Shown: positions 6,147 through 51,235 of the stretch, in pieces | Layout of the letters: each line of letters opens with the position of its first letter | Numbering within the stretch: the first letter of the stretch is position 1 | NCBI RefSeq assembly: GCF_016597785.1 | Contig: NZ_JAENJG010000002.1 | Coordinates: 124,001 to 188,000 of the forward strand | Direction of reading: 5' to 3' | Origin: Leucobacter sp. L43 | Lineage (GTDB): Bacteria > Actinomycetota > Actinomycetes > Actinomycetales > Microbacteriaceae | Length of the DNA stretch: 64,000 nucleotides | Position numbers and translations under genes: made by a program | Notes under the pieces: model-generated | The model's database searches: none | The model's input: the letters and a program-made list of their open reading frames with translations, nothing else | What the model was told of the DNA's origin: nothing

Positions 6147-6182
6147 ACCCTATCGGTGCGGGCGGGACCCTCCCTGCCGGCG

Positions 6183-7319: not shown

Positions 7320-7378
7320 GTCGATCCTTTCGAGAACGTGCGGCCGCTCGCGCCTTGGAGATGGGCCTCTGGTGAACT

Positions 7379-7384
7379 ATATTA
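7379..7384 (+). promoter_or_regulatory. -10 element of the aldehyde dehydrogenase operon, overlapping a minus-strand -10
   Basis: TATATT followed within 10 bases by the operator at 7387-7397, which would cover the start of transcription. On the minus strand TATAGT (7382-7377) could serve the dehydrogenase gene. This AT-rich patch stands out in the GC-rich region. Confidence 0.45.
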
Positions 7385-7386
7385 AA

Positions 7387-7397
7387 TGGTAAGACCA
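7387..7397. promoter_or_regulatory. GntR/FCD-type operator (site 1)
   Basis: TGGTAAGACCA has TGGT/ACCA arms, the form expected for FadR/FCD-subfamily GntR proteins. The 14-base context ATGGTAAGACCACT recurs with one change at 16779-16792 upstream of the GntR gene itself. It lies in the overlapping divergent promoters of the two dehydrogenase operons. Confidence 0.65.
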
Positions 7398-7466
7398 CTC
7401 GGCGCGAAGGGTTCGCGTGCACGGCCGCACGTGAACGGATCCGCCGCCCGCTGCAGAGGAACCACC

Positions 7467-8939
7467 ATGCCCGAGGCACTCGAACTCATCGCACCCGCAG
7501 GAGCACTGCCCATCGGCGGCGAATGGCGCGCGATCGCCGAGCGCTCCGACATCGTCTTCCCGTTCGACGGCAGCGTCGTGGGTCAGGCACCGGTCAGCGG
7601 CGAACAGGATTCGCGCGACGCGCTCGACGCTGCTGAGGCGGCGCGAGCGGCCGTCGCAGCGCTGACCACGGCGCAGCGGAAGGCGATCCTCACCGACCTC
7701 ACGAGCCGCGTGCGCGCGAGCGCCCAGCACCTCGAAGACCTGCTCGTGCTCGAGACCGGCAAGCCCCGCGTCGACTGCCGCACGGAGGTGAACCGCACCA
7801 TCGTCACCCTCGAGGCGACCGCCGAAGAGGTATCGCACATCCATGGCGAGACCGTGCCGCTCGACCTGCAGGAGCTCGGCCGCGGCATGATCGGCTACTA
7901 CACCCGCAAACCCGCCGGCATCGTCATCGGCATCGCCGGCTTCAACTACCCGCTGCTGCTCGCCACCCACAAGCTCGCGCCGGCCATCGCGGCCGGCTGC
8001 CCCGTCATCATCAAACCGGCCCCGAACACGCCGCTCGCGACGATCGAACTGCTCGCCATCACGCGCGAGATCCTCGACGCGCACGGCGTGACGCCGGCGG
8101 CGGTGCAGCTCGTGAACGGCGACCCGATCGTCGGTGAGACGCTCGTCCGCGACCCCCGCGCCTCCGTCGTCTCGTTCACCGGCTCGGCGAAGATCGGCCA
8201 CCTCATCGCGCAGCAGGCCGCACCCCGCAAGGCCGTGCTCGAACTCGGATCCAACACCGGATTCATCGTCGCAGCCGACGCCGACCTCGAAGCCGCCGTC
8301 GACGCCGTGCTGCGCGGCGGCTTCTACGCCAACGGGCAGGCCTGCATCTCGGTGCAGCGCGTCGTGCTCGAGCGCGGGATCGCCGAGCGCTTCTCCGCTC
8401 GTCTCGTCGAACGCATGGGCGAACTCGTCGTGGGCGACCCCCGCGACCTCGCGACGAACGTCGCGCCCGTCATCAACGCCGCCTCGGGTGAGCGCATCCG
8501 CGCCATGATCGACCGGGCCCTCGCCGCGGGAGCGGAACTGCTCACCGACGGCCCTGGCGACGGCGAAGCCGCCCACGTGCGACCCGTCGTGCTCGGCAAC
8601 GTACCGTCCGACGTCGACGTGTGGTGCGAAGAGATCTTCGGCCCGGTCGTCTGCCTCACCGTCGTCGACTCGGTCGACGCCGCGATCGACCTCGTCAACG
8701 ACTCCCGCTACGGGTTGCAGGCCGCCATCTACACCGCCTCGCTCGCGAGCGCCTTCGACGCCATCGAGCGGCTCGAGGTCGGTGGGGTCGTCGTCAACGA
8801 GATCCCCGGCTTCCGCTCCGACATCATGCCGTACGGCGGCGTGAAGGACTCCGGCATCGGCCGAGAGGGCCCCCGCTTCGCGATCGAAGAGTTCACCGTG
8901 ACCCGCATGGCGATGATCCGCCCGCAGGCGCGCAGCTGA
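7467..8939 (+). CDS. NAD(P)-dependent aldehyde dehydrogenase
   Basis: 490-residue ALDH that oxidises an aldehyde to an acid. The catalytic Cys is residue 293 (NGQACISVQR) and the general base Glu is residue 259 in LELGSNTG. The cofactor-site sequence GFNYPLLLATHKLAPA, the Lys in IIKPAPNTPL and EEIFGPV near the C-terminus are all present. I chose ATG 7467 (RBS AGAGGA, 6-base spacing) because an in-frame ATG at 7386 lies inside the operator and promoter. Downstream, 62 bases away, is a short-chain dehydrogenase; an alcohol-to-aldehyde-to-acid sequence by this pair is plausible. The substrate is unknown, and the fit to succinate-semialdehyde-like ALDHs is loose. Confidence 0.88.
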   Translation: MPEALELIAPAGALPIGGEWRAIAERSDIVFPFDGSVVGQAPVSGEQDSRDALDAAEAARAAVAALTTAQRKAILTDLTSRVRASAQHLEDLLVLETGKPRVDCRTEVNRTIVTLEATAEEVSHIHGETVPLDLQELGRGMIGYYTRKPAGIVIGIAGFNYPLLLATHKLAPAIAAGCPVIIKPAPNTPLATIELLAITREILDAHGVTPAAVQLVNGDPIVGETLVRDPRASVVSFTGSAKIGHLIAQQAAPRKAVLELGSNTGFIVAADADLEAAVDAVLRGGFYANGQACISVQRVVLERGIAERFSARLVERMGELVVGDPRDLATNVAPVINAASGERIRAMIDRALAAGAELLTDGPGDGEAAHVRPVVLGNVPSDVDVWCEEIFGPVVCLTVVDSVDAAIDLVNDSRYGLQAAIYTASLASAFDAIERLEVGGVVVNEIPGFRSDIMPYGGVKDSGIGREGPRFAIEEFTVTRMAMIRPQARS

Positions 8940-9001
8940 GATCCCATCACGATCCTGCCGCATCCCGAACTACATCCCGCACTGACCCTGGAGACACCAG
9001 C

Positions 9002-9799
9002 ATGAGCCACACGCAGATCGACTACTCGCAGCTCTTCCGCCTCGACGGACGCACCGTGGTCGTGATCGGCGCGGGCAGCGGCATCGGCCGCGAATCGGCG
9101 CAGGCGCTCGCCGCGCAGGGCGCGCACGTCGTCGTCGCCGACTACTCGCTCGAGGGAGCCGAGGCGACCGCCGCGCTCATCACGCAGCGCGGCGGCATCG
9201 CCGAGGCGTACGAGGTCAACGTGCTGGACGACGACGCCGTCGTCGCCGCGGCCGAGCGCTTCGGCGATGCGTCGGCGCTCGTCTTCACCGCCGCCACCAA
9301 CGTGCGCAAGCGCATGGAGGACTACACGCTCGACGAGTTCGACCGCGTCGTCAACCTGAACCTGCGCGCCTCGTTCCAGCTGATCCGCCACTTCGGCACA
9401 CGGTTCGCCGCCAACGGCGGAGGGTCGATCATCGGCTTCGCGTCGATCCGCGCTCAGGTCGTCGAACCCGGCCAGGGCGTGTACGCCGCGACGAAGGCCG
9501 GTCTCGTGCAGCTCGCGAAGACCGCCGCCGCCGAGTACGGCGCTCAGGGCGTGCGCGTGAACGTGGTGGCTCCCGGGGTCGTTGAGACCCCGCTCACCGC
9601 GCAGATCAAGGCGAACGACGAGTGGTACGGGGCGTACGCGCAGAAGAGCGCGCTCGGCCGCTGGTCGCGACCGGAGGAGCTCGCCGGCGCCGTCGTGTAC
9701 CTGGCCTCAGACGCGTCCTCGTTCGTCACCGGATCCACCCTCTTCGTCGACGGCGGCTGGACCGCGATCGACGGCCGCTTCACGCCGCCGGCTTCGTAG
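9002..9799 (+). CDS. Short-chain dehydrogenase/reductase (SDR)
   Basis: 265-residue classical SDR. The cofactor motif GAGSGIG sits at residues 23-29, Asp in VVADYS suggests NAD(H) preference, and the catalytic Ser (GFASIRA), Tyr161 and Lys165 (VYAATKAG) are intact. The C-terminal FVTGSTLFVDGGW is standard. Likely acts on a hydroxyl group of the compound handled by the adjacent ALDH, with which it shares the promoter at 7379. It is convergent with the amidase gene (60-base gap). Confidence 0.88.
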   Translation: MSHTQIDYSQLFRLDGRTVVVIGAGSGIGRESAQALAAQGAHVVVADYSLEGAEATAALITQRGGIAEAYEVNVLDDDAVVAAAERFGDASALVFTAATNVRKRMEDYTLDEFDRVVNLNLRASFQLIRHFGTRFAANGGGSIIGFASIRAQVVEPGQGVYAATKAGLVQLAKTAAAEYGAQGVRVNVVAPGVVETPLTAQIKANDEWYGAYAQKSALGRWSRPEELAGAVVYLASDASSFVTGSTLFVDGGWTAIDGRFTPPAS

Positions 9800-9859
9800 G
9801 GCGCTCCCGGCTCGGCTCGTGTTCGGCGGGTGCAGCCGGGCAGCGGGTGCGCCCGGTGA

Positions 9860-11260
9860 TCAGGCGACCTGCGACCAGTCGACCTCTGCGTCACTGCCGC
9901 GCACGCCTTCGAACCAGAGCGCGACTCGCATGAGGCGATCGTCGGTTCCGATCTTCGACGCGATCTGGAGGCCGACGGTGCGACCGTCCGGCTGCACGCC
10001 AGCGCCGATCGATACCGCAGGCTGACCCGACATGTTGTAGGGCACGGTGAACGAGATGTGTCCCATCGTTTCGAGCGGGTCGAGGATCGGCATCGGGTCC
10101 TCCGCGGCGAACGCCGCGACCGGGGTCACGGGCGAGAGCACGAGGTCGAACGGCTGCGTCGCGGCTCTCGTGAGGCGGGCCATCTCGTCGATCATGTTGC
10201 GGTTGCGCACCGTTTGAGCGGCGGAGAACGTTGCTCCAGCGGCGCACCACTCGGCGATGAAGGGAAGGACCACGGCCCGCTCGGCGTCGGTGAGGGCCTC
10301 GAAGTCGGCGTATGAACGGCTGCGCCAGAAGTCGGCGATGCCGTCGAGCACCGCTGCGGGGATGAACGGCTCGAGCGGTACGACGGTCGCGCCCGCCTCC
10401 TCGAATCGGGCCGCGGCGCGCTCGATGATCGCACGCGTCTCGGGCTCGACCGGCAGGCCCGAGCCGGCGTCGAGCTGCAGGGCGACGCGGAGACCGGCGG
10501 GGGAGAGCGGCTCGGTCGACCAGTCCATCTCGGCGTACGCGCGCGTCAGATAGTCACGGGGATCGGGCTGCGCGACGATCGACATGAGCCGGATCGCGTC
10601 GGCAGCCGTGCGCGTCAGCGGACCGGCGGCGCGTCCGGCGTAGGGCACGTCGAGCGGGATGAGGCCCTCGCTCGGCTTGAGCGCGGTGAGCCCCTGCCAG
10701 GAGCCGGGCAGGCGGATGGATCCGCCGATGTCGGTGCCGATGTGGAACGGGCCGTATCCCGCCGCAGCCGCCGTGCCGGCTCCTGCGCTCGAACCGCCGG
10801 AGGTGTGCGCCGGGTTCAGCGCTCCGCGGGTGATCCCGTGCAGGCTCGAAACGCCGGACGAGAGCATGCCCCAGTCGGGCATGGTCGTCGAACCCACGAT
10901 GACGGCGCCCGCTTCGAGCAGTCGATCCGTGGTCGGAGCGTTGTGAGCTGCGACCGGCGGGTTCGGGATCGCCGTCCCGGCGGGTTTCGGCTGCCCGGCG
11001 CGCGCGATGTTCTCCTTGACCGTCGCCGGCACCCCGTCGAACGGGCCGAGCTGCGTCCCGGTGCGCCAGCGCTCGGTTGAAGCGGCGGCGTCGGCGCGCA
11101 CCTGCGCGGCGTCGAACAGGTAGAGCGCGTTGAGCTCCGGCTCGCGCGCTTCGACGCGGGCGATGACGTCTTCGGCGACCTCGCTGGGGGTGAGCGATCC
11201 GTCGGCGTAGCGCTCGCTGAGAGCGGCGGCGTCGAGAGCGGCGGGGCGGTGCGAGGTCAT
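9860..11260 (-). CDS. Amidase (amidase-signature family)
   Basis: 466-residue hydrolase of C-N amide bonds. The Ser-cisSer-Lys triad is visible: Lys82 (TVKENI), Ser157 (TSGGSSAGAG) and nucleophile Ser181 (TDIGGSIRLP). ATG 11260 is preceded by AAAGG and starts the alignable protein; the frame stays open further upstream but into intergenic sequence. It is the last gene of the minus-strand operon carrying the Dpp-like importer, 43 bases after the ATPase gene. It would hydrolyse the imported amide, peptide or amino-acid amide. It lacks the features of GatA context (no gatB or gatC nearby), so a tRNA role is unlikely. Confidence 0.87.
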   Translation of the reverse strand: MTSHRPAALDAAALSERYADGSLTPSEVAEDVIARVEAREPELNALYLFDAAQVRADAAASTERWRTGTQLGPFDGVPATVKENIARAGQPKPAGTAIPNPPVAAHNAPTTDRLLEAGAVIVGSTTMPDWGMLSSGVSSLHGITRGALNPAHTSGGSSAGAGTAAAAGYGPFHIGTDIGGSIRLPGSWQGLTALKPSEGLIPLDVPYAGRAAGPLTRTAADAIRLMSIVAQPDPRDYLTRAYAEMDWSTEPLSPAGLRVALQLDAGSGLPVEPETRAIIERAAARFEEAGATVVPLEPFIPAAVLDGIADFWRSRSYADFEALTDAERAVVLPFIAEWCAAGATFSAAQTVRNRNMIDEMARLTRAATQPFDLVLSPVTPVAAFAAEDPMPILDPLETMGHISFTVPYNMSGQPAVSIGAGVQPDGRTVGLQIASKIGTDDRLMRVALWFEGVRGSDAEVDWSQVA

Positions 11261-11303
11261 CCTGGGCCTTTCGTCGAGGTGGTGCGGGTCGAAGACGTCC
11301 GCG

Positions 11304-13085
11304 CTAGGCGCTCTGGGCGAGCTCCTGACGCAGCGTGAGGGAGGAATCGATGAGGCGCTTCGTGTAGGGGTGCTGCGGGGTGCGATACACCGTCTCCGTG
11401 TCACCGGCTTCGACGATCTCGCCCGACTGCATCACGATCACCGAGTCGCACAGGTACCGCACGACGTTGAGGTCGTGCGACACGAACACGAGGGTGAGGC
11501 CGTACTCGTCGACGAGGTCGGCGAGCAGGTTGAGCACCTGGGCGCGCACCGAGACGTCGAGGGCGCTCACCGGCTCATCTGCGACGACCACCTGGGGGCG
11601 GCAGATCAGCGCGCGGGCGATCGAGATGCGCTGACGCTGACCGCCCGAGAACTGGTGGGGGAAGCGCTCCGCGGAAGACGCGGGCAGACCCACGGCTTCG
11701 AGCATCTCCGCGACCATGCGCTTGCGGTCGGCGGCGGTCTCACCGCGCCCGGGCACGAGCAGCGGCTCGGAGATGATCTGCTCGACGGTCATGCGCGGAT
11801 CGAGCGAACCCATCGGGTCCTGGAACACGATCTGCAGGTTCTGCCGCAGCGCGCGGAGCTGCGGCTCCTTCGCACCCTTCACCTCGTTGCCCGCGACGAC
11901 GGCGCTGCCCGAGGTCGGCTGGTCGAGCCCGGCGAGAATGCGCAGCAGCGTCGACTTGCCGGATCCCGACTCACCGACGACCCCGAGACGGCCGCCCTCC
12001 GGCACCTCGAAGGAGATGCCCTTGAGCGCGTGCACCTCGGGGGCAGGCTTGAGGATGCTCGTGCGTCCGCGCGTGTAGGTGCGCACCAGATCGGTGACGC
12101 GCATCACCGGTTCGGCGTGCGCGGGCGCGGTGCCGGCAGCAGCAGTGCCAGCCGCAGCAGCGCCGGCGACCGCCGCGGATGCCTCCGGGCGCGCGACGAT
12201 CTGCTCGTCGGCGGTCGGCGGCACGTACTCCTGCGCGGTCGCGACGGTGAAGAGGCGGCCCCTCGCATCGACGGCGTCGAGGTCGGACGCCGCGAGCAGC
12301 CCCCGCGTGTACGGGTGGGTCGGGCGGGTGAAGACGTCTTCGGTCGTGCCCTCCTCGACGACGGCGCCGTTGTTCATGACGAGCACGCGCGTGCACATGT
12401 TCGCGACCACGGCGAGGTCGTGCGTGATGAAGAGCAGGCCAGTGCCGCGTTCGCGCACGAGTTCGAGAATGAGGTCGAGCACCTGCCGCTGCACGGTGAC
12501 GTCGAGCGCCGTCGTCGGCTCATCGCAGAGCAGCAGCGACGGATCGTTTGCGAGCGCCATGGCCAGCATCACGCGCTGGCGCTGCCCGCCGGAGAGCTGA
12601 TGCGGGTAGGCCCGCGCGGCCTGAGCGGGATCGGGGAGGTGCACGGCGTCGAGCATCTCGACCGCACGGCGGTTCGCCTCGGCCTTGTTCGGCGCGAGCT
12701 TGTGCTGCAGGATGATCTCCGCGACCTGGGCTCCCGCGCGCATCAGCGGATTCAGCGCCGTGAGGGGCTCCTGGAACACCATCGCCATGTTGTTGCCGCG
12801 CAGCTTCATGAGATCGGATTCCGGGGCCTGGAGCAGGTTGCCGGAGTATCCGTCGATCTCGACGGACCCGTCGGCGGTGACGCCGTTCGGGAGCAGGCCG
12901 AGCAGCGCGGTCGTGGTCATCGATTTGCCCGATCCGGATTCCCCGATGAGGCCGATGCGCTCGCCATGAGCCATGTGCAGGGAGAAATCGGAGACGAGCG
13001 TGCGATAGGGGGTGCGCACGTTGAGGTCGTCTACGCGCACCAGCAGGTCTGCGCCGGTGCGCGGGACGTTGGATTCGGTGCGCAT
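11304..13085 (-). CDS. Peptide/nickel-type ABC transporter ATPase, fused DppD-DppF
   Basis: 593-residue protein with two complete ABC domains. Domain 1 covers about residues 14-275 and domain 2 about 325-585, each with GESGSGKS Walker A, LSGGQRQR or FSGGQRQR signature and DEP Walker B (CDEPTTALD; ADEPVSALD). Each ends in the oligopeptide-transporter C-terminal extension. An Ala/Gly-rich linker (about 295-320) joins them. A single fused ATPase would power the DppB/DppC channel. The start codon overlaps the stop of the upstream permease by one base (TGATG). Such fusions occur widely in actinobacteria. Confidence 0.92.
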   Translation of the reverse strand: MRTESNVPRTGADLLVRVDDLNVRTPYRTLVSDFSLHMAHGERIGLIGESGSGKSMTTTALLGLLPNGVTADGSVEIDGYSGNLLQAPESDLMKLRGNNMAMVFQEPLTALNPLMRAGAQVAEIILQHKLAPNKAEANRRAVEMLDAVHLPDPAQAARAYPHQLSGGQRQRVMLAMALANDPSLLLCDEPTTALDVTVQRQVLDLILELVRERGTGLLFITHDLAVVANMCTRVLVMNNGAVVEEGTTEDVFTRPTHPYTRGLLAASDLDAVDARGRLFTVATAQEYVPPTADEQIVARPEASAAVAGAAAAGTAAAGTAPAHAEPVMRVTDLVRTYTRGRTSILKPAPEVHALKGISFEVPEGGRLGVVGESGSGKSTLLRILAGLDQPTSGSAVVAGNEVKGAKEPQLRALRQNLQIVFQDPMGSLDPRMTVEQIISEPLLVPGRGETAADRKRMVAEMLEAVGLPASSAERFPHQFSGGQRQRISIARALICRPQVVVADEPVSALDVSVRAQVLNLLADLVDEYGLTLVFVSHDLNVVRYLCDSVIVMQSGEIVEAGDTETVYRTPQHPYTKRLIDSSLTLRQELAQSA

Positions 13086-14008
13086 CAGCCGCGGCTCCCG
13101 TTCAGTTTCGGATCGAAGCGGTCGCGCAGGCCGTCACCCAGCAGGTTGAAGCCCATGACCGCGATGGCGATGGCGATGCCGGGCCAGACGGCGAGCATCG
13201 GTTCGGTGCCGAGGAACTGCTGCGACTCCTGCAGCATGCGTCCCCACGACGGGGTGGGCGGTGGCGTTCCGAGCCCCAGGAAGCTGAGGCCCGCCTCCGC
13301 GAGCACCGCCAGTGCGAACGACACGGAGGACTGCACGACCACCATGCCGATGATGTTGGGCAGCACGTGGCGCAAGGCGATCCTGAATCGCGACTGACTG
13401 GCGGCTCGTGCAGCGAGCACGTACTCCGTGGTCATCACCTGCAGGGTGCCCGAGCGCGCGACGCGGGCGAACCCGGGAATGGTCGCGATGCCGATCGCCA
13501 CCATGGCGGTGAGCGTCGATGCGCCGAAGACGGCGCTGAACATGATCGCGAGCAGCAGCGCCGGGAACGCGAGTGCGATGTCGGAGGCGCGCATGATGAC
13601 CTCTTCGATCCATCCGCCCCTGATGCCTGCGAGAATGCCGAGCGGCGTGCCGATCACGATCGCGATGCCGACCGAGATGACGCCGACGAACAGCGTGATG
13701 CGCGCGCCGTAGAGCATGGCGGAGAAGACGTCGCGACCGTACTTGTCGGTGCCCATCAGGTGCGCGAGGCTCGAGCCCTGCAACCGGTCGGCGGGCATCG
13801 CCTGGGTCGGATCGTACGGCGTCCAGAAGAAGGACACGATCGCCGCGAGTGCGACGAGCCCGATCAGGATCAACCCGATCAGCAGCGTCGCCGACAGCTT
13901 GCGCTTGCCCGACCTCGAGACGACGCTCGTGCTGGCATTGCCGGGGGCGCTGATCGCGGTGGTGCGCGGCGCCTGAGAGGGTGGGGTGGGAACCTGTTGC
14001 GTGCTCAT
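13085..14008 (-). CDS. Peptide-type ABC transporter permease, DppC-like
   Basis: 307-residue inner-membrane permease. A 30-residue Ser/Thr/Pro-rich tail precedes transmembrane helix 1 (ATLLIGLILIGLVALAAIV). The motif LMGTDKYGRDVFSAMLYGAR is the family hallmark at the start of the permease domain and the EAA loop AARAASQSRFRIALRHVLPN contacts the ATPase. It starts 2 bases after the DppB-like gene stop. Together they form the channel for a di- or oligopeptide-like or amide substrate. Confidence 0.92.
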   Translation of the reverse strand: MSTQQVPTPPSQAPRTTAISAPGNASTSVVSRSGKRKLSATLLIGLILIGLVALAAIVSFFWTPYDPTQAMPADRLQGSSLAHLMGTDKYGRDVFSAMLYGARITLFVGVISVGIAIVIGTPLGILAGIRGGWIEEVIMRASDIALAFPALLLAIMFSAVFGASTLTAMVAIGIATIPGFARVARSGTLQVMTTEYVLAARAASQSRFRIALRHVLPNIIGMVVVQSSVSFALAVLAEAGLSFLGLGTPPPTPSWGRMLQESQQFLGTEPMLAVWPGIAIAIAVMGFNLLGDGLRDRFDPKLNGSRG

Positions 14009-38496: not shown

Positions 38497-39978
38497 ATGG
38501 AATTCGACTGGTTCGGACTGGATTGGCCCGTCGTCTGGGCCTGGTTCGTGCTCGTCGTCGACAATCTGATTCGTCTCGTCGCCATCTTCGTCGTCCCGCG
38601 CAATCGGCGCCCCACCGCCGGCATGGCCTGGCTCATGGCGATCTTCGCCCTGCCGGTGCCCGGTCTGCTGCTCTTCCTGGTCATCGGGAGCAAGCGGCTC
38701 CCTCGTGCACGCGAGCGGAAGCAGGAGGCGATCAATCACTTCGTCGCCCAGATCGCCGACCAGGAGGAAGCCGAACTCATCACGCCGCCGGAACGGATGC
38801 TTCCGGGGCTCGACAGTGTGGTGAAGCTCGGCCGTGAGCTCGGAGCGCAGCCGATGCTGCAGGGCAATACGGCGTCGCTCTGCATCGACTACGAGGAATC
38901 GTTCGCTCGGATGGCCGAGGCCATTCGCGCCGCGAAAGCGTACGTGCACGTCGAGTTCTACATCTTGGTGCACGACGAGACCACGAACGACGTCTTCGCC
39001 GCTCTGCGCGAGGCCGTGGCCCGCGGGGTGACGGTGCGCGTGCTGCTCGACCACATCTCGGCCGTGCGGAATCCCGGCTCGAAGCGCACGGCGCAGAGTC
39101 TGACCGACATGGGCGCCCAGTGGTCGTACATGCTGCCGGTGCGGCCGTGGCGCGGCGAGTATCAGCGCCCCGACCTGCGCAACCACCGCAAGCTCATCGT
39201 CATCGACGGCTCCGTCGGCTTCATGGGATCGCAGAACCTCGTCGACTCCAGCTACAACAAGCGGTCGAATCGGCGGCGCGGTCTGCATTGGAAAGACCTC
39301 ATGGTGCGGGTCGAAGGGCCCATCGTGCTCGGACTCGAAGCGGTGTTCCAAGGCGACTGGTACCTCGAAACCGGCGAGTACCTGACGAACCTCACCGACG
39401 AGGCGGTCAACGTGCAGCAGCCCGGCGACCTCGACTGCCAGATCGTGCCGAGCGGCCCGGGATACGCAGGCGAGAACAACCTGCAGGTCTTCGTCGCCCT
39501 CATGTACTCGGCGCAGCGTCGCATCAGCATCACGAGCCCGTACTTCGTTCCGGACGGCTCCATCATGAACGCCGTGCGCGCCGCGACGGCTCGCGGGGTC
39601 GAGGTCGAGCTCTTCGTCTCGGAGGTCGGCGACCAGGCGATGGTGTACCACGCCCAGCGCTCCTACTACGAGGAGCTGCTGCGCGCCGGGGTGCGCATCA
39701 TGATGTTCCGCCCGCCGTACATCCTCCACTCGAAGCACTTCACCGTCGACGAGGAGGTCGCGGTCGTCGGATCGTCGAACATGGATCAGCGATCCTTCGG
39801 GCTCAACATGGAGATCTCGATGGTGGTGCACGGAGCGGAATTCGTGCGCGATCTCGACGGCGTCACCGATTACTACCGCGAGAACTCGCGCGAGCTGACC
39901 CTTGAGGAGTGGGAGAAGCAGTCACTGCCCTCTCAGCTGCTCGACGGCATCGCGCGACTCACCTCGGCGCTGCAGTAG
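38497..39978 (+). CDS. cls: Cardiolipin synthase (phospholipase D superfamily)
   Basis: 493-residue membrane enzyme that joins two phosphatidylglycerol molecules into cardiolipin plus glycerol. It has two N-terminal transmembrane helices (about residues 13-32 and 42-62) and two HKD motifs, HRKLIVIDG starting at His230 and HSKHFTVDE starting at His411, each followed by the GSxN pocket (MGSQN, VGSSN). The usual Cls sequence HVEFYILVHDET marks the domain start. RBS GGAGG precedes ATG 38497, and TACAGT (38437) is a candidate -10. Confidence 0.93.
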   Translation: MEFDWFGLDWPVVWAWFVLVVDNLIRLVAIFVVPRNRRPTAGMAWLMAIFALPVPGLLLFLVIGSKRLPRARERKQEAINHFVAQIADQEEAELITPPERMLPGLDSVVKLGRELGAQPMLQGNTASLCIDYEESFARMAEAIRAAKAYVHVEFYILVHDETTNDVFAALREAVARGVTVRVLLDHISAVRNPGSKRTAQSLTDMGAQWSYMLPVRPWRGEYQRPDLRNHRKLIVIDGSVGFMGSQNLVDSSYNKRSNRRRGLHWKDLMVRVEGPIVLGLEAVFQGDWYLETGEYLTNLTDEAVNVQQPGDLDCQIVPSGPGYAGENNLQVFVALMYSAQRRISITSPYFVPDGSIMNAVRAATARGVEVELFVSEVGDQAMVYHAQRSYYEELLRAGVRIMMFRPPYILHSKHFTVDEEVAVVGSSNMDQRSFGLNMEISMVVHGAEFVRDLDGVTDYYRENSRELTLEEWEKQSLPSQLLDGIARLTSALQ

Positions 39979-40447: not shown

Positions 40448-41092
40448 TCAGAACGCGTGCTGCTCAGCCGGGGTGCCGAGGCGGCGGATCGCGATCCGCG
40501 GCCCGTTCCGCGTCTCGTCGACCGGGAACGGGATCTCGTGGGCTGCCGGTGCATCCCTCGCGGCCGCCGGTGAGATCAGCCAGGCCTCGCCGTTGAGAAT
40601 GCGCGGGGCTTCCGTTCCGCTCAGCGCTGTCAGGGCGGAGCGGATGAGCGCTCCGTGGGCCACGACGATCGACCCGGGGGCCTCGCGCAGGATCCGCCCG
40701 AAAGCTGATGCTCCGCGTTCCGCGAGCGCCGCGAGAGCTTCCGCGTCGGGGACGTCGAGGCCGGGCCACCGGGCGCTGGCATCGGTGACGAGCATCCCCT
40801 CGGCCGAACCGAAGTCGCGCTCGATGACGTCATCCGCGATCTCCGCCTGCGGCAGCTCGAGCCGGTCGGAGATGATGCGAGCGGTTTCGGCGGCGCGACT
40901 GAGCGGGGACGCGATGACGCGCCGCCACGGCCCTGCATCGTGCAGCAGCTCGGCGATCTCACCGGCCTGGCTGCGGCCGCGCTCGTTCAGCGGGATATCG
41001 GTGCGGCCCTGGATGCGGCGACCGATGTTCCAGTCGGTCTCGCCGTGCCGAACGATGACGATGGATGCGGCTCGAGATTCAGGGGTGCTCAT
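40448..41092 (-). CDS. Histidine phosphatase (phosphoglycerate-mutase-like)
   Basis: 214-residue enzyme of the histidine phosphatase superfamily, branch 1. The RHG motif is VIVRHGETDWNIGRR with the phospho-acceptor His near residue 15, followed by DIPLNERGRSQA and SPLSRAAETARII; the second His is in VAHGALIRS. It would remove phosphate from a small phospho-compound. Its ATG overlaps the stop of the ABC ATPase gene (ATGA), making it the last gene of the minus-strand importer operon. Confidence 0.88.
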   Translation of the reverse strand: MSTPESRAASIVIVRHGETDWNIGRRIQGRTDIPLNERGRSQAGEIAELLHDAGPWRRVIASPLSRAAETARIISDRLELPQAEIADDVIERDFGSAEGMLVTDASARWPGLDVPDAEALAALAERGASAFGRILREAPGSIVVAHGALIRSALTALSGTEAPRILNGEAWLISPAAARDAPAAHEIPFPVDETRNGPRIAIRRLGTPAEQHAF

Positions 41093-42246
41093 ACTCCCAC
41101 GCTAACCGGTCGAGGTCGTGCTGCGCCCGCGACGGGGGAACCGGCTGACGGTTCGGAGACCACTCGCCCGTGCGTCTCGGTCGTCGGGCTGCGGAAGGCG
41201 GTCGCCCGTTCGATCTCCACGCGCACACGGGTGCCAGCAGCGCAACGCACGCCGTGCGCACGCGAGCGGATCGAGAGCCCCTGCCAGTCGATCACGAGGT
41301 CGTCGCCGCCTCGGCCGAAGAGCGACGAGGTGACGGTCGCGGGGCCCGATGGGTCTGGAATCGCGCGCACGTGCTCGGGCGAGACGGCGAGTTCCACTGC
41401 AGCGCCACCGTTTCGCCCCTGGCCGTCGAGTCGTGTCCCGTCCACACGCTCGAACGGCAGCGCGAGCGGGTGCTGATCAGCGCGGAACCCGGCGTGGTCG
41501 AGCACTCCCAGCACGATCGCCGCATCGGAGACGAACCCCGCGACGAAGGCCGACGCGGGGCGCTCGACCAACTCAGCGGGGGTCGCCACTTGCTGGACTC
41601 GGCCGCCGTCGACGACGACCACCCGATCGGCGAGCGCGAGCGCCTCGCTCCGATCGTGGGTGACGTGCAGCACGGTCAGGCCGAGCTCGCGGGTGAGCGC
41701 GCGGAGTTCGAGCCGGAGGCGATCGCGCAGCGGCTCGTCGAGTGCGGAGAGCGCCTCGTCGAGGAGCAGCACGCGCGGGCGTGCGACGATTGCTCGGGCG
41801 ATCGCGACGCGCTGCCGCTGGCCGCCGGAGAGCGTGGCGGGGTTGCGCCGCTCGGCGCCGGGGAGACCCACGAGATCGAGTGCCTCTGCGACGCGGCGGC
41901 GGCGCTCCGCTCGCGAGACGCCGCCCCGGCGCAAGGGGTACTCGATGTTGCGGCCGACGTTCCAGTGCGGCCAGACCGCGTGCTGCTGGAACACCATGCC
42001 GAGCCCGCGCCGCTCGGGCTCCAGGCTCCGGCTCGGCGAAGCCACCACGGTATCGCCGATGCGCACGGTTCCGGCGGTCGGGGCGATGAAACCGGCGACC
42101 GTGCGCAGCAGGGTCGTCTTGCCGGAGCCCGACGGGCCGACGAGGGCCACGAACTCGCCGTCGCCGATGCGGAGATCGACGTCGGCGAGCCCGAGATGGC
42201 CCCCGGGGTAGGAGAGACTGACCGATTCGAGTGCGACGGAAGACAC
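41089..42246 (-). CDS. ABC transporter ATPase (FbpC/PotA-type)
   Basis: 385-residue ATPase: Walker [12 protein letters not shown] (near residue 38), Q-loop [11 protein letters not shown], signature LSGGQRQR, Walker [13 protein letters not shown]-loop [12 protein letters not shown], and a C-terminal TOBE-like domain (about 255-370). It belongs to the iron(III)/spermidine/aminoethylphosphonate class. The GTG start has AGGAA just upstream and follows the permease stop by 8 bases. Confidence 0.9.
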
Positions 42247-42254
42247 GAGCGTTC

Positions 42255-44006
42255 CTAACGTGGGGTGCGGGCGGTGAGGCCGAGACCGGCGAGTCCGACG
42301 AGTGCGACGATGAGCGAGAGCGCGGACGAGGCGTTGTAGGCGCCTGCCTGCTGCAAGTTGAAGATGACGACGCCGAGCGTCTGGGAGCCGGGCGAGAGCA
42401 GGAGTACGGAGAGCGTGAGCTCGCGCACAGCGGTGAGCCCGACGAGAACCGCCCCCGAGATCGCTGCGGGAACGGCCATGCGGCACGAGATGTCCCAGAG
42501 CGCCCGCAGACGGGTGGCGCCCGAGATGCGGGCTGCCTCCTCCGCAGTCGTCGGGGTCGCGGAGAGCGGGGCGTGCACGGATTGCACGACCAGGGCGAGG
42601 AACGACGTCAGATAGGCGCAGAGGATCAGCCAGGGCGTGTTGGAGAGGCCGATCTTCGGTGCGATCACGAGCCAGGCGACAGCGATGACGAGTCCGGGGA
42701 TCGCCTGCGGCAGGAGCGACAGACCGAGCAGCGCGGGGTTGCTCCGAGCGCGCGTGCGGGTCACGAACGTGCCGATCCCGAGTCCCAGCACTCCGCAGAT
42801 GATGGCGGCGAGTGTCGCCAGCATCAGTGAGTTGCCGATACCGGTGAGTGTGCCCGATGCCGACAGGGCCCGTTCGAAGCTCGCGAGTGTGACCGTCTCG
42901 AGCGTGAGCGGCACCCCGGGCGCTGGCAAGAGGGATTGGATGGCGAGCGTGATGAGCGGCAGCACGGTGACCGCGAGCACTGCGATGGCGGTGAGCGCGC
43001 CGACCGGCACCCTGGCACGTCCGAGCGGGAGCCGTGCCGGTGCTCCGGCTTGTGCGTCGAGCTCGACCCGTGTGCGCGTGCGCAGAAGATCGACGACGAC
43101 ACCGAGCAGCGCGATGACGAGCAGTACGAACCCGATGGCCGAGACCACCGCGAGGGGGTCGTCGACGGTGCCCGACTGCAGGTAGCGGTAGACGAGGGTG
43201 GAGAGCGTGACGTAGCGCTCGGGCAGACCGATGATGGAGGGGATGCCGAAATCGGCGAGATTCGACACGGCGATGAGTGTGAACGAGGAGAGCATGGCGG
43301 GTCGCAGCAGCAGCGTCGTGACCTCCCAGAGCGCGCGGGGCGCGGAGGAGCCGGAGATGCGCGCCGCCTGCTCCAGGTCCGCGGGAATGCGCCGCAGTGC
43401 AGCTGTCACGATCATCATCGCGATCGGGTAGCTGTGGAGGGTGAGGAGGAAGATCACGCCGTCGCCGCCGTAGAGATTCCAGAGCGGTGCGCCGAACCGC
43501 TGCGTCCAGAACGTGTTCACCGCTGCCGAGGGGCCGAGCAGGCTGAGCCAGGCGATCGCCCCGACGAACGGCGGCATGAGCATCGGGCTGAGTGCGAGCA
43601 GGCGGAGCGCGCGACGGCCGGGCAGGTCGGTGCGTTCGAGCAGCACGGCGAGCGCGCTGCCGATGACCACGGCGAGCACGGCTGAGACGGCGGCGGAGAC
43701 GAGCGAGTTGCCGGCGGCTCCGAGCACGTCGGGATCGCCGAGGGCCGTCCATCCGCCGCCGGTCGCGGCGAGGACGACGATCGCGATGATCGGTACGAGG
43801 ATGAGGGCGGCGACCGCGCACCACAGGGCGATGCGCACCGCGCCGAGGCCGTCGAGCGAGAACCGGGACCTCGCCGCATCGGTGGCGCGATCCCGGCCGG
43901 TCCCGCGGGCGTCCCCGGCACCTCGGACGTCCCCGGCACCGCGGGCCCGACCGTGGTCGGTCGAGCCCGCGAGCGGCGGCGAGAGCGTGTTACTGGAAGA
44001 GGCCAT
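42255..44006 (-). CDS. ABC transporter permease, FbpB/PhnU-like double permease
   Basis: 583-residue membrane protein with about 12 helices: two permease domains in one chain, each with an EAA loop (ARISGSSAPRALWEVTTLLLRP and ARISGATRLRALWDISCRMAVP). This two-in-one layout is typical of iron(III) and 2-aminoethylphosphonate importers. The N-terminus contains imperfect Gly/Arg repeats (RGAGDVRGAGDARGTG). ATG 44006 overlaps the binding-protein gene by 17 bases. Confidence 0.9.
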   Translation of the reverse strand: MASSSNTLSPPLAGSTDHGRARGAGDVRGAGDARGTGRDRATDAARSRFSLDGLGAVRIALWCAVAALILVPIIAIVVLAATGGGWTALGDPDVLGAAGNSLVSAAVSAVLAVVIGSALAVLLERTDLPGRRALRLLALSPMLMPPFVGAIAWLSLLGPSAAVNTFWTQRFGAPLWNLYGGDGVIFLLTLHSYPIAMMIVTAALRRIPADLEQAARISGSSAPRALWEVTTLLLRPAMLSSFTLIAVSNLADFGIPSIIGLPERYVTLSTLVYRYLQSGTVDDPLAVVSAIGFVLLVIALLGVVVDLLRTRTRVELDAQAGAPARLPLGRARVPVGALTAIAVLAVTVLPLITLAIQSLLPAPGVPLTLETVTLASFERALSASGTLTGIGNSLMLATLAAIICGVLGLGIGTFVTRTRARSNPALLGLSLLPQAIPGLVIAVAWLVIAPKIGLSNTPWLILCAYLTSFLALVVQSVHAPLSATPTTAEEAARISGATRLRALWDISCRMAVPAAISGAVLVGLTAVRELTLSVLLLSPGSQTLGVVIFNLQQAGAYNASSALSLIVALVGLAGLGLTARTPR

Positions 44007-45018
44007 TGAAAGTCTCGACGGCGTCGGCCTGCGACGCGCGGATCGTCTCGAGGTCGGGGGTGAGCAGTGTGATGTCGGCAGTCGCGGGCGCGCCTTCCGG
44101 GCTCTCGACGTCATCGCGGATCGGGAGGTACGACTGCGATGCTGCGATCTCCTGCCCTTCCTTGCTGATGAGGAAGTCGACGAGCAACTGGGAGGCCTCT
44201 GGCTCCGCGGTATCGGCGAAGATGCCGACCGGCTGCGACACGAAGGGCACGCCCTCCTCGGGGTAGACCGCCTCGATGGGCGAACCCGCGGCGGCGAGGT
44301 CCCGCACGAGGGAGTCGACGACGATCCCGACCGGGCTGCTGCCGTCGGCGACGGCCTGCGAGACGGGGCCGTTGCTCTCCGCGATCAGGGGCTGGTTGGC
44401 GGCGAGCCCCTCGAGCCAGGTCATGCCCAGGTCGTCGTTGTCGAGCCACACGGCGGCGTTGTACGCAGCGGCGCCCGAGACGTCGGGGTTCGGCATCGCG
44501 ATCTTCCCCGCGTACTCGGGGTCGGTGAGATCCTGCCACGACTCGGGGGCCTCGGTGATGACGTTCGTGTTGATCGCGACGACGGTCGGCAGTACTCGCG
44601 TGCCGACGTAGAAGTGCTCGGGATCGACGAGATCCTGATTGATGGCCGCGGCTTCGGGGGATTCGTACTCGAGGAGCAGGTCGCGCTCGGCGTAGTCCTC
44701 GAACGTGCCGGCGTCGGCCGCCAGCAGCAGGTCGGCGCCGATGTCGCCCGACTTCTCCTCGGCTGCGATACGAGCGGTGAGATCTCCGGTGCCGGCGCGG
44801 AAGACGTCGACGGTGATCTCCGGGTGCTGCTCGGTGAACGCCGTGACGATCGCGTCGATCTTCTCCTGCGGCTCCGAGGTGTACAGGGTGATCGTCGACG
44901 CATCGGGGGTGCCGGCATCGCCGGAGTCGGTTGCGTCCGCCGAAGCGGCGCATCCGGTGAGTGCGAGGGCCGACAGGGCGAACGCGGCGATGACGCCGGT
45001 GGAACGATTACGAGACAT
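43990..45018 (-). CDS. ABC transporter substrate-binding lipoprotein (FbpA/PhnS-type)
   Basis: 342-residue lipoprotein with lipobox LALTGC (Cys23) after a hydrophobic signal. The fold is that of the Fe(III)/2-aminoethylphosphonate binding group, with ITLYTSEPQEKIDAIVTAF at the N-terminus and ADLLLAADAGTFEDY. The paired Tyr that hold iron in classical FbpA are not obvious, and the three phosphatases around it favour a phosphorylated or phosphonate ligand. It overlaps the metallophosphoesterase gene by 11 bases. Confidence 0.87.
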   Translation of the reverse strand: MSRNRSTGVIAAFALSALALTGCAASADATDSGDAGTPDASTITLYTSEPQEKIDAIVTAFTEQHPEITVDVFRAGTGDLTARIAAEEKSGDIGADLLLAADAGTFEDYAERDLLLEYESPEAAAINQDLVDPEHFYVGTRVLPTVVAINTNVITEAPESWQDLTDPEYAGKIAMPNPDVSGAAAYNAAVWLDNDDLGMTWLEGLAANQPLIAESNGPVSQAVADGSSPVGIVVDSLVRDLAAAGSPIEAVYPEEGVPFVSQPVGIFADTAEPEASQLLVDFLISKEGQEIAASQSYLPIRDDVESPEGAPATADITLLTPDLETIRASQADAVETFNGLFQ

Positions 45019-45823
45019 GGGTCGCTTTCTGTGCAGAGCGGGTGATGGATTGGGTGAAGAGGGGCTCGGGTGAGTGCAGCGCGATCGTGGAAGCGCTCAC
45101 TCCCTCGCTCGTGAACTGGACGAGCGAGAACATGGGGGAGTCGTGCCCGGCGACGGCGTCGGGGCCGGCGTTCATCACCTGGTGGTAGGCGAGAGAGGGG
45201 CCGACGAAGATGGGAATGCCGTGCATCGATGCCGTGAGGCCGTGGTGGAAATGCCCGGCGAGGATCGCGCGGACGTCGCTGCCGTCGAGTACGTGGAGCA
45301 GCTCCTCCGCGTTGCGGAGGCCCTGGCGGCGGAGCGCCGGCAGCGGTGAGCCGAGCGGCGCGTGGTGCAGCGCGACGACCGTGCCGCGTTCCGCCGGTGC
45401 AGCGAGCTCGGAGGCGAGCCACTCGAGTTGATCGGCGTCGATGCGGCCGGTGCGCGAGTCGAGACGGACCACGCGGACGCCGTCGACGAGGTGGGCGCCG
45501 AAGTGTGCGCGCGCGTGGCCGGGAAGTGCGTGCGCGGCGATGGGGTCGTCGTGGTTGCCGAGCACGGTGAGCACCGGTGCGGCCAGGCGATCCTGCAGGC
45601 GATCGCACGCCCGTGCCACCGCGGCGTAGGCGCCGGCGTTGCCGCGTTCGATGAGGTCGCCGGTGATGACGACCGCCTCCGGCGTGATGCCGGTCGCGAG
45701 CGCGTAATCGCCCACCCGTTCGAGCCGACCCAGGCCGTCGACCGCGTCGTAGAGCAGACCGCTCTCCGTGGCGTGGAGGTCGCTCACGTGGAGCACCGTG
45801 AACCGGCCGGTGCGGCGGCTCAT
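45008..45823 (-). CDS. Calcineurin-like metallophosphoesterase (CpdA/GpdQ-type)
   Basis: 271-residue phosphodiesterase or phosphomonoesterase. All five metal-binding blocks are visible: DLH (Asp15, His17), GDL (Asp56), GNHDD (Asn90, His91), HH in VALHHAPLG, and GHFHHG. The class III layout suits cyclic-nucleotide or glycerophosphodiester substrates. There is no signal peptide, so it acts in the cytoplasm on imported material. Start overlaps the stop of the tyrosine-phosphatase gene (ATGA). Confidence 0.88.
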   Translation of the reverse strand: MSRRTGRFTVLHVSDLHATESGLLYDAVDGLGRLERVGDYALATGITPEAVVITGDLIERGNAGAYAAVARACDRLQDRLAAPVLTVLGNHDDPIAAHALPGHARAHFGAHLVDGVRVVRLDSRTGRIDADQLEWLASELAAPAERGTVVALHHAPLGSPLPALRRQGLRNAEELLHVLDGSDVRAILAGHFHHGLTASMHGIPIFVGPSLAYHQVMNAGPDAVAGHDSPMFSLVQFTSEGVSASTIALHSPEPLFTQSITRSAQKATHVS

Positions 45824-46524
45824 GCGACTGATCCCGAGGCGATGGCGGCGTGCGCGTCCGCCCGATCCGCGAGGGCGGCCACGTGCCCGGACGTCGCGCC
45901 GTGCGTGCGGAGATACTGCGCGACCCCTCCCAGCTCATCCACGATGTCGAGTGCCGATTCGAGGGCCTCCGCGGGGCTGTCCAGGTGGAGTCGCTCCGAC
46001 GCGGCGCGCGCCGCAGCTGAGAGCGTGACGCCCGAGAGCTGCGCGGCGGCGATCGCCTCCCGCTGCGGGCGCACGGTCTCGCCCGATACTGCGTAGTCAG
46101 CCACGACTTCGGCACGCGCGTCTCCCGCGGCGAGTCTCGCCAGGGCGACGACGAGTCCGGTGCGGTCCTTCCCGGCTGTGCAGTGCACGACCGCGGTTCC
46201 CGGGTGCTCGGCGATGGCGATGACAGCGGCGGTGAGCCGTGAGCCGCGATCGCGGACGAGCCCCGCGTAGACGGATTCGAGCGTTCCCGAGGTGGGCGGC
46301 GCTGCGCCGTAGAGCGGCACGGAGCGCACGGGGATCGTGTGCGTGCGCCCCGCCTGCTCCGATTCCTCGCGCAGGTCGATGACGAGGTCGACGCCGACGT
46401 CTCGGAGGCTGCGCTCGCCGCCGGAGGTGAGCGCATCGAGGCCCGCCGAGCGCACGAGCCAGGGGCGACGGCGGTGACCGATGCCTCGTGCGTTGTAGCT
46501 GCCGTCGAGTGAAATGTCGTGCAC
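45820..46524 (-). CDS. Tyrosine-phosphatase-like protein (Y_phosphatase3 family)
   Basis: 234-residue phosphatase. The P-loop HCTAGKDRTG contains the nucleophile Cys115 and Arg121; the N-terminal NARGIG and DLREESE match the Y_phosphatase3 family, members of which act on phosphotyrosine, phosphoinositides or small phospho-compounds. It is the first structural gene of the importer operon, 153 bases downstream of the RpiR gene; the gap contains regular direct repeats at 46552-46579. Confidence 0.87.
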   Translation of the reverse strand: MHDISLDGSYNARGIGHRRRPWLVRSAGLDALTSGGERSLRDVGVDLVIDLREESEQAGRTHTIPVRSVPLYGAAPPTSGTLESVYAGLVRDRGSRLTAAVIAIAEHPGTAVVHCTAGKDRTGLVVALARLAAGDARAEVVADYAVSGETVRPQREAIAAAQLSGVTLSAAARAASERLHLDSPAEALESALDIVDELGGVAQYLRTHGATSGHVAALADRADAHAAIASGSVA

Positions 46525-46551
46525 TGCTCTGTTCTCCTGCCGGTGTCGCCC

Positions 46552-46579
46552 GTTACATCGGGCGTGAAATGCGGTTACA
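46552..46579. promoter_or_regulatory. Direct-repeat array with 11-base period upstream of the phosphatase-importer operon
   Basis: GTTACA at 46552 and 46574 and CGTGAA at 46563 start exactly 11 bases apart; on the minus strand they read TGTAAC, TTCACG, TGTAAC. One-turn spacing is typical of OmpR/PhoB-type response regulators. The array ends 28 bases before the ATG of the tyrosine-phosphatase gene. Confidence 0.5.
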
Positions 46580-46677
46580 TGAGCAGCATCGCCGGGCAGG
46601 GTGTCGCGGTGGTGAACGGGTGGGGACGCGCAGCTGTCGAACTGGAGAAGGGTGCGAAAATCCCAGATCAGAAAGAC

Positions 46678-47532
46678 TTACTGCTGAGAGTCGACGAGGG
46701 CGTCAGCGACGACCTCGCGCATGTCGAGCGCGTCGGTGCTCGATCGCAGGCCTGCGACCTCCGTGACGAGCGCCTGCAACAGCACGGAGTGGCCGAGTCG
46801 GCTGAAGAAGGGATCGACCGCGTGCTGGGTGCCGACTGCGCCGGTCGAGAGCGCGACGTCCGAGAGCTCGACCAGGGGGGCCCTCGGGTAGCTGCAGAGC
46901 GACACGATTCGCGCACCGCGCTTGCGCGCGGCGCGCACCGTCGCCAGTGTGTGCGCGTTCGCCCCGGAATGACTGAGTGCGAAACAGACGTCAGCATCGG
47001 TGAGGCTGTGAGCGGCGAACTGCTGAGCGAGGATGTCGAGCGGCGCTTCCACCGGGCGGCCGACCGTGGCGAGGCGCATGGCGGCGTCTTGCAGTGGTGG
47101 AGCGGAGAACCCGTTGGCGGCGCACACGACGCGCGAGGCGCGCGCGAGCAGCGCGGCGGCCTCGGCGAGGGCGGTGCGGTCGATCGAAGCCCGCCCGACG
47201 AGCAATGCGGCCCGCGCGCTCTCGAAGACCTGGTCCACGGCGTCTCCCGGGGTGCGCTCCTCGGTACCGGAGGCGGGCATCTCCCGTGCCAGTTCGAGGC
47301 GCAGATGCTGGAACCCGCGGAATCCGAGCCGCTGGCAGGCTCTGATGACGGTGGCGGTCGATGTTCCGGCCGCCGCGGCGAGCTCCTGCGTCGACCACTG
47401 CGGGACGTCGGCGGGGCGATCGAGGATCACTCGGGCGACCGCGCCCTCGCTCTGCCCGAGGGTCGCGGCGAACGCGCGGATCAGGGCGAGCGCAGACGCG
47501 GGTGCTGCTGGGGAGAGCGAGGGCGACGACAT
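46678..47532 (-). CDS. MurR/RpiR-family regulator with SIS domain
   Basis: 284-residue regulator. The N-terminal HTH_6 domain (about residues 15-90) includes SEGAVARVILDRPADVPQWSTQELAAAAGTSTATVIRACQRLG in two adjoining helices and the C-terminal SIS domain (about 125-260; VCAANGFSAPPLQDAAMRL, DVCFALSHSG) binds phosphosugars. It sits on the same strand just upstream of the phosphatase-importer operon, so the effector is probably a phosphorylated compound brought in or made by it. Confidence 0.9.
   Translation of the reverse strand: MSSPSLSPAAPASALALIRAFAATLGQSEGAVARVILDRPADVPQWSTQELAAAAGTSTATVIRACQRLGFRGFQHLRLELAREMPASGTEERTPGDAVDQVFESARAALLVGRASIDRTALAEAAALLARASRVVCAANGFSAPPLQDAAMRLATVGRPVEAPLDILAQQFAAHSLTDADVCFALSHSGANAHTLATVRAARKRGARIVSLCSYPRAPLVELSDVALSTGAVGTQHAVDPFFSRLGHSVLLQALVTEVAGLRSSTDALDMREVVADALVDSQQ

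Positions 47533-48709: not shown

Positions 48710-51235
<2,526 letters not shown>

Follow-up and report, generated by a model that had tools for sequence, protein, structure and literature searches.

What does an ATP-binding cassette (ABC) importer bring into the cell when its operon also encodes an RpiR regulator and three phosphatases of different families? The question is raised by seven minus-strand genes of Leucobacter sp. L43, which lie in a stretch of 64,000 nucleotides (nt; hereafter the window) of a 3.15 Mb genome and whose transporter proteins carry the database name "iron(III) transport system" (Table 1). An earlier note on this DNA had listed the seven genes with their families and junctions, all of which match the coordinates and Pfam, where every named family scores above its cut-off. 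It also proposed scavenging of a phosphate ester rather than iron uptake, and this proposal is supported by the absence of iron-binding tyrosines and the co-conservation of the phosphatases described below. The cassette is real and conserved, its regulation is predicted, and it probably serves the utilisation of phosphate esters. As to the diester step and the class of ligand, which we infer, our preferred reading (probability roughly 0.6) is that the cell imports a small phosphodiester whole, the glycerophosphodiester class being the most probable, and hydrolyses it in the cytoplasm.

Table 1 The importer operon and the control elements in its upstream gap (positions in the window).
Feature	Position	Strand	Basis
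RpiR regulator, HTH_6 + SIS, 284 amino acids	46678..47532	-	PF01418 58.9 bits, PF01380 40.6 bits
PHO-box-like direct repeat GTTCACC-accg-CGACACC	46600..46617	-	11-nt phase over 49 sequences; motif from the literature
Predicted RpiR operator TGTAACCGCATTTCACGCCCGATGTAAC	46552..46579	-	Gibbs motif; sole perfect consensus match in the genome
Y_phosphatase3 / atypical lipid phosphatase (ALP, MptpB-type), P-loop HCTAGKDRTG	45820..46524	-	PF13350 118.9 bits
Class III metallophosphodiesterase, Rv0805/GpdQ type (calcineurin-like)	45008..45823	-	PF00149; Rv0805 match E 1.8e-35
Binding lipoprotein, SBP_bac_6, AfuA-like	43990..45018	-	Pfam, structure matches, conserved phosphate-site positions
Double ABC permease, BPD_transp_1 twice, 583 amino acids	42255..44006	-	PF00528, two stretches
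ABC ATPase (ABC_tran), 385 amino acids	41089..42246	-	PF00005 120.2 bits
Histidine phosphatase, branch 1 (His_Phos_1)	40448..41092	-	PF00300 130.9 bits

A gap of 153 base pairs (bp) separates the RpiR and ALP genes. The ALP and phosphodiesterase genes overlap by 4 bp, the phosphodiesterase and binding-protein genes by 11 bp and the binding-protein and permease genes by 17 bp; an 8-bp gap then precedes the ATPase gene, which overlaps the histidine phosphatase gene by 4 bp. Relatives were collected in a single scan with the binding-protein profile alone, 80 loci being kept, and their genes were called heuristically from GC content by codon position and from homology. The four non-transporter genes were counted as partners when their profiles scored above 100 bits on the same strand within at most 7 kb. 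The phosphodiesterase was found in 68 of the 80 loci, ALP in 65, and RpiR and the histidine phosphatase in 54 each, while all four occurred together in 42 loci spanning 12 genus-level labels (41 of the 71 loci with at least 4.5 kb on either side of the binding protein). The 80 loci are partly dependent, since L042 and L043 resemble one locus taken twice and L051 and L053 come from one metagenome-assembled genome (MAG). The order RpiR, gap, ALP, phosphodiesterase, binding protein, permease, ATPase, histidine phosphatase is constant and the flanks vary; in Yaniella the histidine phosphatase is placed ahead of RpiR, and the 4-bp overlap between ALP and phosphodiesterase is repeated across genera. 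The earlier note had made co-conservation of the phosphatases with the transporter a check of its proposal, and the 42 complete loci bear it out, with the transporter alone at ten.

Among 299 genomes of the family, the binding protein scores at least 480 bits in 21, the next score being 135. The operon-type phosphodiesterase likewise forms a separate score group of 18 matches (277-416 bits; next 236), and all 18 lie in genomes with the binding protein, at most about 250 bp from its gene by coordinates. Eight candidates were scored per genome in this phosphodiesterase search, which missed G188 and G274, although the matching records L035 and L037 do show the gene. ALP has 21 matches of at least 254 bits, three of them outside the cassette (G071, G051:C9 and G121:C2). 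It is clear that the seven genes form a conserved cassette, which is more than a chance association.

Several observations on relatives of the cassette may be recorded here. At L125 (G071:C1:2517000-2533000, positions 7096-8440) an ALP gene adjoins a histidine phosphatase gene with no importer genes nearby, in a genome with no match to the binding protein. L126 (6990-7620) and L127 (7222-7852) carry stand-alone ALP genes that are close kin of those in the operon; their neighbourhood is conserved and has neither the binding protein nor the permease of the cassette. A record labelled Vibrio cholerae 35D (L033) contains the cassette with a binding protein 61% identical to that of the window, and is probably a mislabelled or contaminated assembly, and in a Cryobacterium MAG (L055) the cassette frames are broken by decay or assembly error. 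By eye, the operon of the window is flanked by a cardiolipin-synthase-like gene (38497-39978, plus strand) and a ClpC-like gene (48710-51235, plus strand); gene clusters c7 and c6, which resemble these flanking genes, are each found at 14 of the 80 loci.

The binding protein is 90-91% identical to named Leucobacter proteins, and its AlphaFold model (mean predicted local distance difference test, pLDDT, 89.7) has as nearest solved structures VcA0625, whose entry title describes it as glucose-6-phosphate-binding, and AfuA; the literature searched yielded nothing on VcA0625. In an HMMER alignment to HiFbpA the FbpA iron ligands Y195/Y196 align with S236 and L237, position 237 being Leu in 12 of 12 rows and 236 Tyr in most, so that the tyrosine pair to which the earlier note had tied an iron function is absent. 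The phosphate site of AfuA and P5PA is retained: S/T37, S147-G148 and S183 correspond to T77, S181-G182 and S215, of which T77 and S181-G182 show no variation, and S215 is kept at 90% or more, in 56 rows that include relatives without phosphatases. Helices begin at 77, 182 and 216 in the model, and the T149/T150 position is replaced by A183. The offsets between chain and published numbering, 2 for AfuA and 38 for P5PA, were derived by hand from the alignment. The transporter is AfuA-like and does not consist of Ugp orthologs (UgpB/A/E/C).

The three enzymes carry intact catalytic motifs. In the phosphodiesterase the dimetal residues D15, H17, D56, N90-H91, H153, H191 and H193 are invariant (20 rows), and Foldseek with its AlphaFold2 model (pLDDT 90.3) gave Rv0805 at ranks 1-4 and GpdQ at ranks 5-7. 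The ALP P-loop HCXXGKDR[TA]G has its H, C, G, K, D, R, T and G invariant (18 rows), and in the histidine phosphatase E91 and H146-G147 are invariant and R15-H16-G17 kept at 90% or more (18 rows, of which L076 starts inside the gene). Read by eye, the N-termini show no evident signal peptide, and hydrolysis should therefore be intracellular.

Fusion of two genes suggests that their products act in consecutive steps. ALP and phosphodiesterase form a single open frame in Leucobacter sp. OH1287 (L025) and Zimmermannella faecalis (L049), and a search with the latter fusion, admitting only lengths of 0.55-1.75 of the query, returned 21 proteins, 18 of them with both Pfam domains and several named Rhodococcus. 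The fused protein is present in 4 of 18 genomes of Rhodococcus, the genus of L061, and all four copies lie inside the cassette, after RpiR and before binding protein, permease and ATPase; three of these loci also show the histidine phosphatase, the fourth stretch being too short to cover its place. An initial view that Rhodococcus lacks the phosphatases is true of L061 and L067 beside the transporter and was revised on account of these four. In the phosphodiesterase tree the fusions occupy three supported places, P0128 with P0131, P0129 with the unfused L036, and the four of Rhodococcus type, which would suggest three separate fusions, or fewer with later splits; P0128 is a long row of odd composition. 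The window-type phosphodiesterases are not one clean group, as the rows from Yaniella, Paeniglutamicibacter and Arthrobacter and the long rows L058 and L072 branch outside it. L151 of R. rhodnii was rejected as a fusion, its translation being two genes that share one frame, and viral contigs searched for a relative of the fusion contained none.

The control elements found in the gap between RpiR and ALP are a palindromic operator and a PHO-box-like array; no search was aimed at iron boxes. A Gibbs search of 54 gaps (53 relatives and the window) gave a 32-nt motif of 28.8 bits, compared with 9.6 in shuffled gaps, with the core TGTAAY-N3-RTTYCA-N7-YGNAAY; another Gibbs motif, centred on the ALP start codon, was discarded as an operator candidate. 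The genome holds two further sites at two mismatches, and the reversed control none. Under a model built without sequences of its genus, the operator of the window scored 30.2, the next site in the 64 kb scoring 7.9. Leaving out one genus at a time, the best site of the locus fell in the gap for 48 of 54 RpiR loci (44 on the plus and 4 on the minus strand, the latter allowed because the operator is a palindrome; scores 6.7-35.7) and outside it in L019, L020, L021, L055, L063 and L066. Rows L031, L041, L058, L068 and L078 were excluded from the model, yet scored. In the 26 loci without RpiR, for two of which (L051 and L087) upstream sequence is scant or absent, the best score was 13.1 and the best site of the locus stood ahead of the transporter only in L088 (6.4). 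Contrasts within Leucobacter (L025), Cryobacterium (L042) and Paeniglutamicibacter (L080, L083 and L085 versus L076) fit the same pattern, and in the four Rhodococcus cassettes, which were outside the model, the best site was in the gap every time (18.1-20.7 versus at most 7.6 elsewhere). RpiR and the predicted operator are thus coupled across loci. A wider RpiR regulon was considered and dropped: the two 2-mismatch sites, near C1:1.692-1.693 Mb, fall within or next to what by eye is a sugar-acid-type cluster that has an IclR-type regulator, and they were treated as chance, the best scores there being 12.6 and 6.4.

Upstream of the operator stands the PHO-box-like array, whose units in the window begin 35 and 24 nt ahead of the 32-nt motif. 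GTTCACC is the PHO-box unit of Streptomyces coelicolor (PMC4415409; this and the other papers cited here were available in part, and what is drawn from them is limited to those parts), and PolR of Microlunatus binds a similar repeat (PMC6754071). GTTCAC[CT] occurs at most 75 nt upstream of the operator in 31 of 54 loci (shuffled mean 0.5, maximum 3), and over 49 sequences the matches to GTTCACC peak at -35, -57, -24, -68 and -46 from the motif start, a single 11-nt phase with a phase mean of 3.22 versus a shuffled maximum of 2.27. When the 300 nt upstream were tested, p was at most 0.05 in 41 of 54 RpiR loci, in 10 of 16 loci that have phosphatases and no RpiR, and in 2 of 9 transporter-only loci. 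In the genome the sole perfect GTTCACCNNNNGTTCACC precedes pstS and a copy with two mismatches precedes ppk1. Matches to the GTTCACC double repeat number 34, versus 6 in the reversed control; 17 of 30 inspected sites lie inside predicted genes, so that a single site means little. One 2-mismatch copy lies upstream, on the same strand, of a further SBP_bac_6 lipoprotein gene (L174/L003, C1:1459456-1462146), possibly part of another phosphate-controlled importer. For the PhnD-like gene of L186 a PHO box was rejected, since the repeat is on the opposite strand and points at a divergent neighbour.

The same genome holds a second set (L123, C1:1406000-1424000, about 5935-13253), in which RpiR, an ATPase, a binding protein, ALP, an Rv0805-like phosphodiesterase (Rv0805 match E 3e-100) and two Ugp-like permeases form one run of genes. 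Its RpiR, ALP and phosphodiesterase are 36%, 42% and 33% identical to those of the window, and its transporter proteins stay below the NCBIfam cut-offs for Ugp (UgpE 145/297, UgpA 102/335, UgpB 28/411 bits). A genome search with its binding protein, five candidates per genome, gave scores above 580 bits in 4 of 299 genomes, an ALP gene adjoining in every case, and the protein is present in Rhodococcus rhodnii too; in the 300-nt test, 2 of 4 cassettes of this second type reached p of at most 0.05. In the tree, the second-set phosphodiesterases join Rv0805-like genes that stand alone and are separated from the window type (100/100); the two sets may be old paralogs or separate assemblies. A related palindrome, GTTTCC...GGAAAC, can be seen by eye in the RpiR-ATPase gap of the second set. 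A tentative idea, which we consider rather less than an even bet, is that RpiR, ALP and Rv0805-type phosphodiesterase make up a portable "import whole, cut inside" module carried by two unrelated actinobacterial ABC importers; phosphodiester scavenging might then be the original job of the Rv0805 and MptpB families.

On the preferred phosphodiester reading the lipoprotein would bind its ligand through the phosphate site formed by three helix ends, as the hand-mapped residues and the AlphaFold model suggest, and permease and ATPase would bring it into the cell. The Rv0805-type enzyme is predicted to cut the diester to a monoester, from which ALP and histidine phosphatase would remove the phosphate. 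The array is predicted to activate the operon under phosphate starvation, and RpiR, on the operator just downstream, would be released by a phosphorylated intermediate, in keeping with its SIS domain; the operon would then likely be active only with phosphate in short supply and the ligand at hand. The earlier note had left the choice between a phosphodiester and a multiply phosphorylated compound; the former fits somewhat better because the phosphodiesterase is the most frequent partner. Several results weigh against this reading. The transporter lacks all four partners in ten loci (two of them cut contigs), and the residues with which AfuA coordinates its sugar (H205, D206 and E229; PMC4546632) are not kept, mapping to S236, L237 and V260. 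The weakest operator scores in gaps (from 6.7) overlap with those reached elsewhere in loci without RpiR (at most 13.1). The array of the window consists of one perfect and one 4-of-7 unit; when each genus is represented by a single sequence (16), phase is kept by the top three offsets only and the fourth is out; 13 of 54 upstream regions fall short of significance, and by eye the four Rhodococcus gaps have no clear array. The second-set binding protein resembles Ugp only weakly (its best match in NCBIfam is NgcE with 33.4 bits, and UgpB has 28.4, both far below cut-off).

Among other explanations, an AfuABC-like importer of a phosphomonoester (a sugar phosphate or similar), whose phosphatases are broad dephosphorylating enzymes and no diester is involved, would suit the closest solved relatives of the binding protein, which bind glucose-6-phosphate, and RpiR regulators sense sugar phosphates. 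The soil ALP Pho16B, moreover, attacks phytate and many monoesters (PMC6409689). We consider this unlikely, as the replaced sugar residues rule out strict membership in AfuA, and the commonest partner is an Rv0805/GpdQ-type phosphodiesterase, which in L072 is the sole partner remaining beside the transporter. Scavenging of a cyclic nucleotide (2',3'-cyclic nucleoside monophosphate or cyclic AMP) or nucleotide, with the Rv0805-type enzyme opening the ring and the others freeing the nucleoside, draws on Rv0805 being the best solved relative and a cyclic nucleotide phosphodiesterase, and on matches to CpdA and SpdA, which stay below their NCBIfam cut-offs (68.0 vs 225 and 75.5 vs 400 bits). Against it, the ligands of the binding protein's relatives are sugar phosphates, Rv0805 has low affinity for cyclic AMP and acts on further substrates, both cyclic and linear (PMC13001264), and no nucleoside-using family recurs between RpiR and histidine phosphatase (flanking genes being unannotated), which leaves it quite improbable.

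The narrower proposal of an inositol phosphodiester as the ligand, for instance glycerophosphoinositol, would agree with the HCXXGKDR signature, which marks ALPs acting on phosphoinositides (PMC3091653). IolE, however, is over its curated cut-off in 1 of 299 genomes (with sub-cut-off matches in 129 of 299, and 2 of 14 control genomes over), and not in the host genome (154 vs 290 bits), which also counts against our own reading. Inositol as carbon source thus received no support from this test; phosphate alone could be the gain, and we rate the specific ligand as improbable as the cyclic nucleotides, if not slightly more so. Uptake of iron or 2-aminoethylphosphonate, finally, has the database names on its side and PhnS2 as best NCBIfam match of the binding protein. 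We reject it as very improbable on residues and cut-offs: the tyrosine pair is absent, PhnS2 scores 133.3 against a cut-off of 392.75 bits, and none of the seven operon genes matches a phosphonate-cleaving family in Pfam or NCBIfam.

Rv0805 and MptpB are known mainly as cyclic AMP phosphodiesterase and virulence phosphatase of M. tuberculosis. The cassette offers a concrete catabolic setting for these two enzyme families of unsettled natural substrates, and corrects the name "iron transporter" given in many actinobacteria. It also predicts that a single operon is switched by two inputs, phosphate starvation and RpiR. Unlike secreted phosphatases, an intracellular route would keep the freed phosphate and carbon private. 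No description of the seven-family combination was found in the literature searched, many journals being outside its coverage.

Several known systems resemble parts of the operon. Rv0805 and MptpB/ALP belong to the same families, with the same catalytic motifs, as the two overlapping and elsewhere fused genes, which in the operon are coupled to an importer and, by eye, free of signal peptides. The hexose-phosphate importer AfuABC, formerly also called an iron importer, has the binding-protein fold, transporter class and phosphate-site positions in common with the operon, and the available part of that paper mentions no operon with RpiR, ALP, phosphodiesterase or histidine phosphatase (PMC4546632). 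The pyridoxal-phosphate importer P5PA makes its phosphate contacts through T37, S147-G148 and S183, the counterparts of T77, S181-G182 and S215; it is 20% identical to the binding protein, and its T149 is replaced by A183 (PMC8427247). Among phosphate-stress proteins of Phaeobacter, a phosphate-induced predicted phosphodiesterase has a locus number neighbouring those of a sugar ABC transporter, and in the available part of that report no ALP, RpiR or histidine phosphatase is seen beside it (PMC10132767). The closest logic is that of UgpBAEC with UgpQ/GlpQ, including the phosphate-starvation ugp cluster of Corynebacterium glutamicum, where an organophosphate is imported whole under phosphate control, as is predicted for our operon, and a phosphodiesterase gene is linked, as in our operon (PMC7866108). 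The likeness extends to the Ugp-like permeases of the second set in the host genome. Compared with Ugp, the operon has a transporter of a different class, a metallophosphoesterase in place of GlpQ, and ALP, histidine phosphatase and RpiR added.

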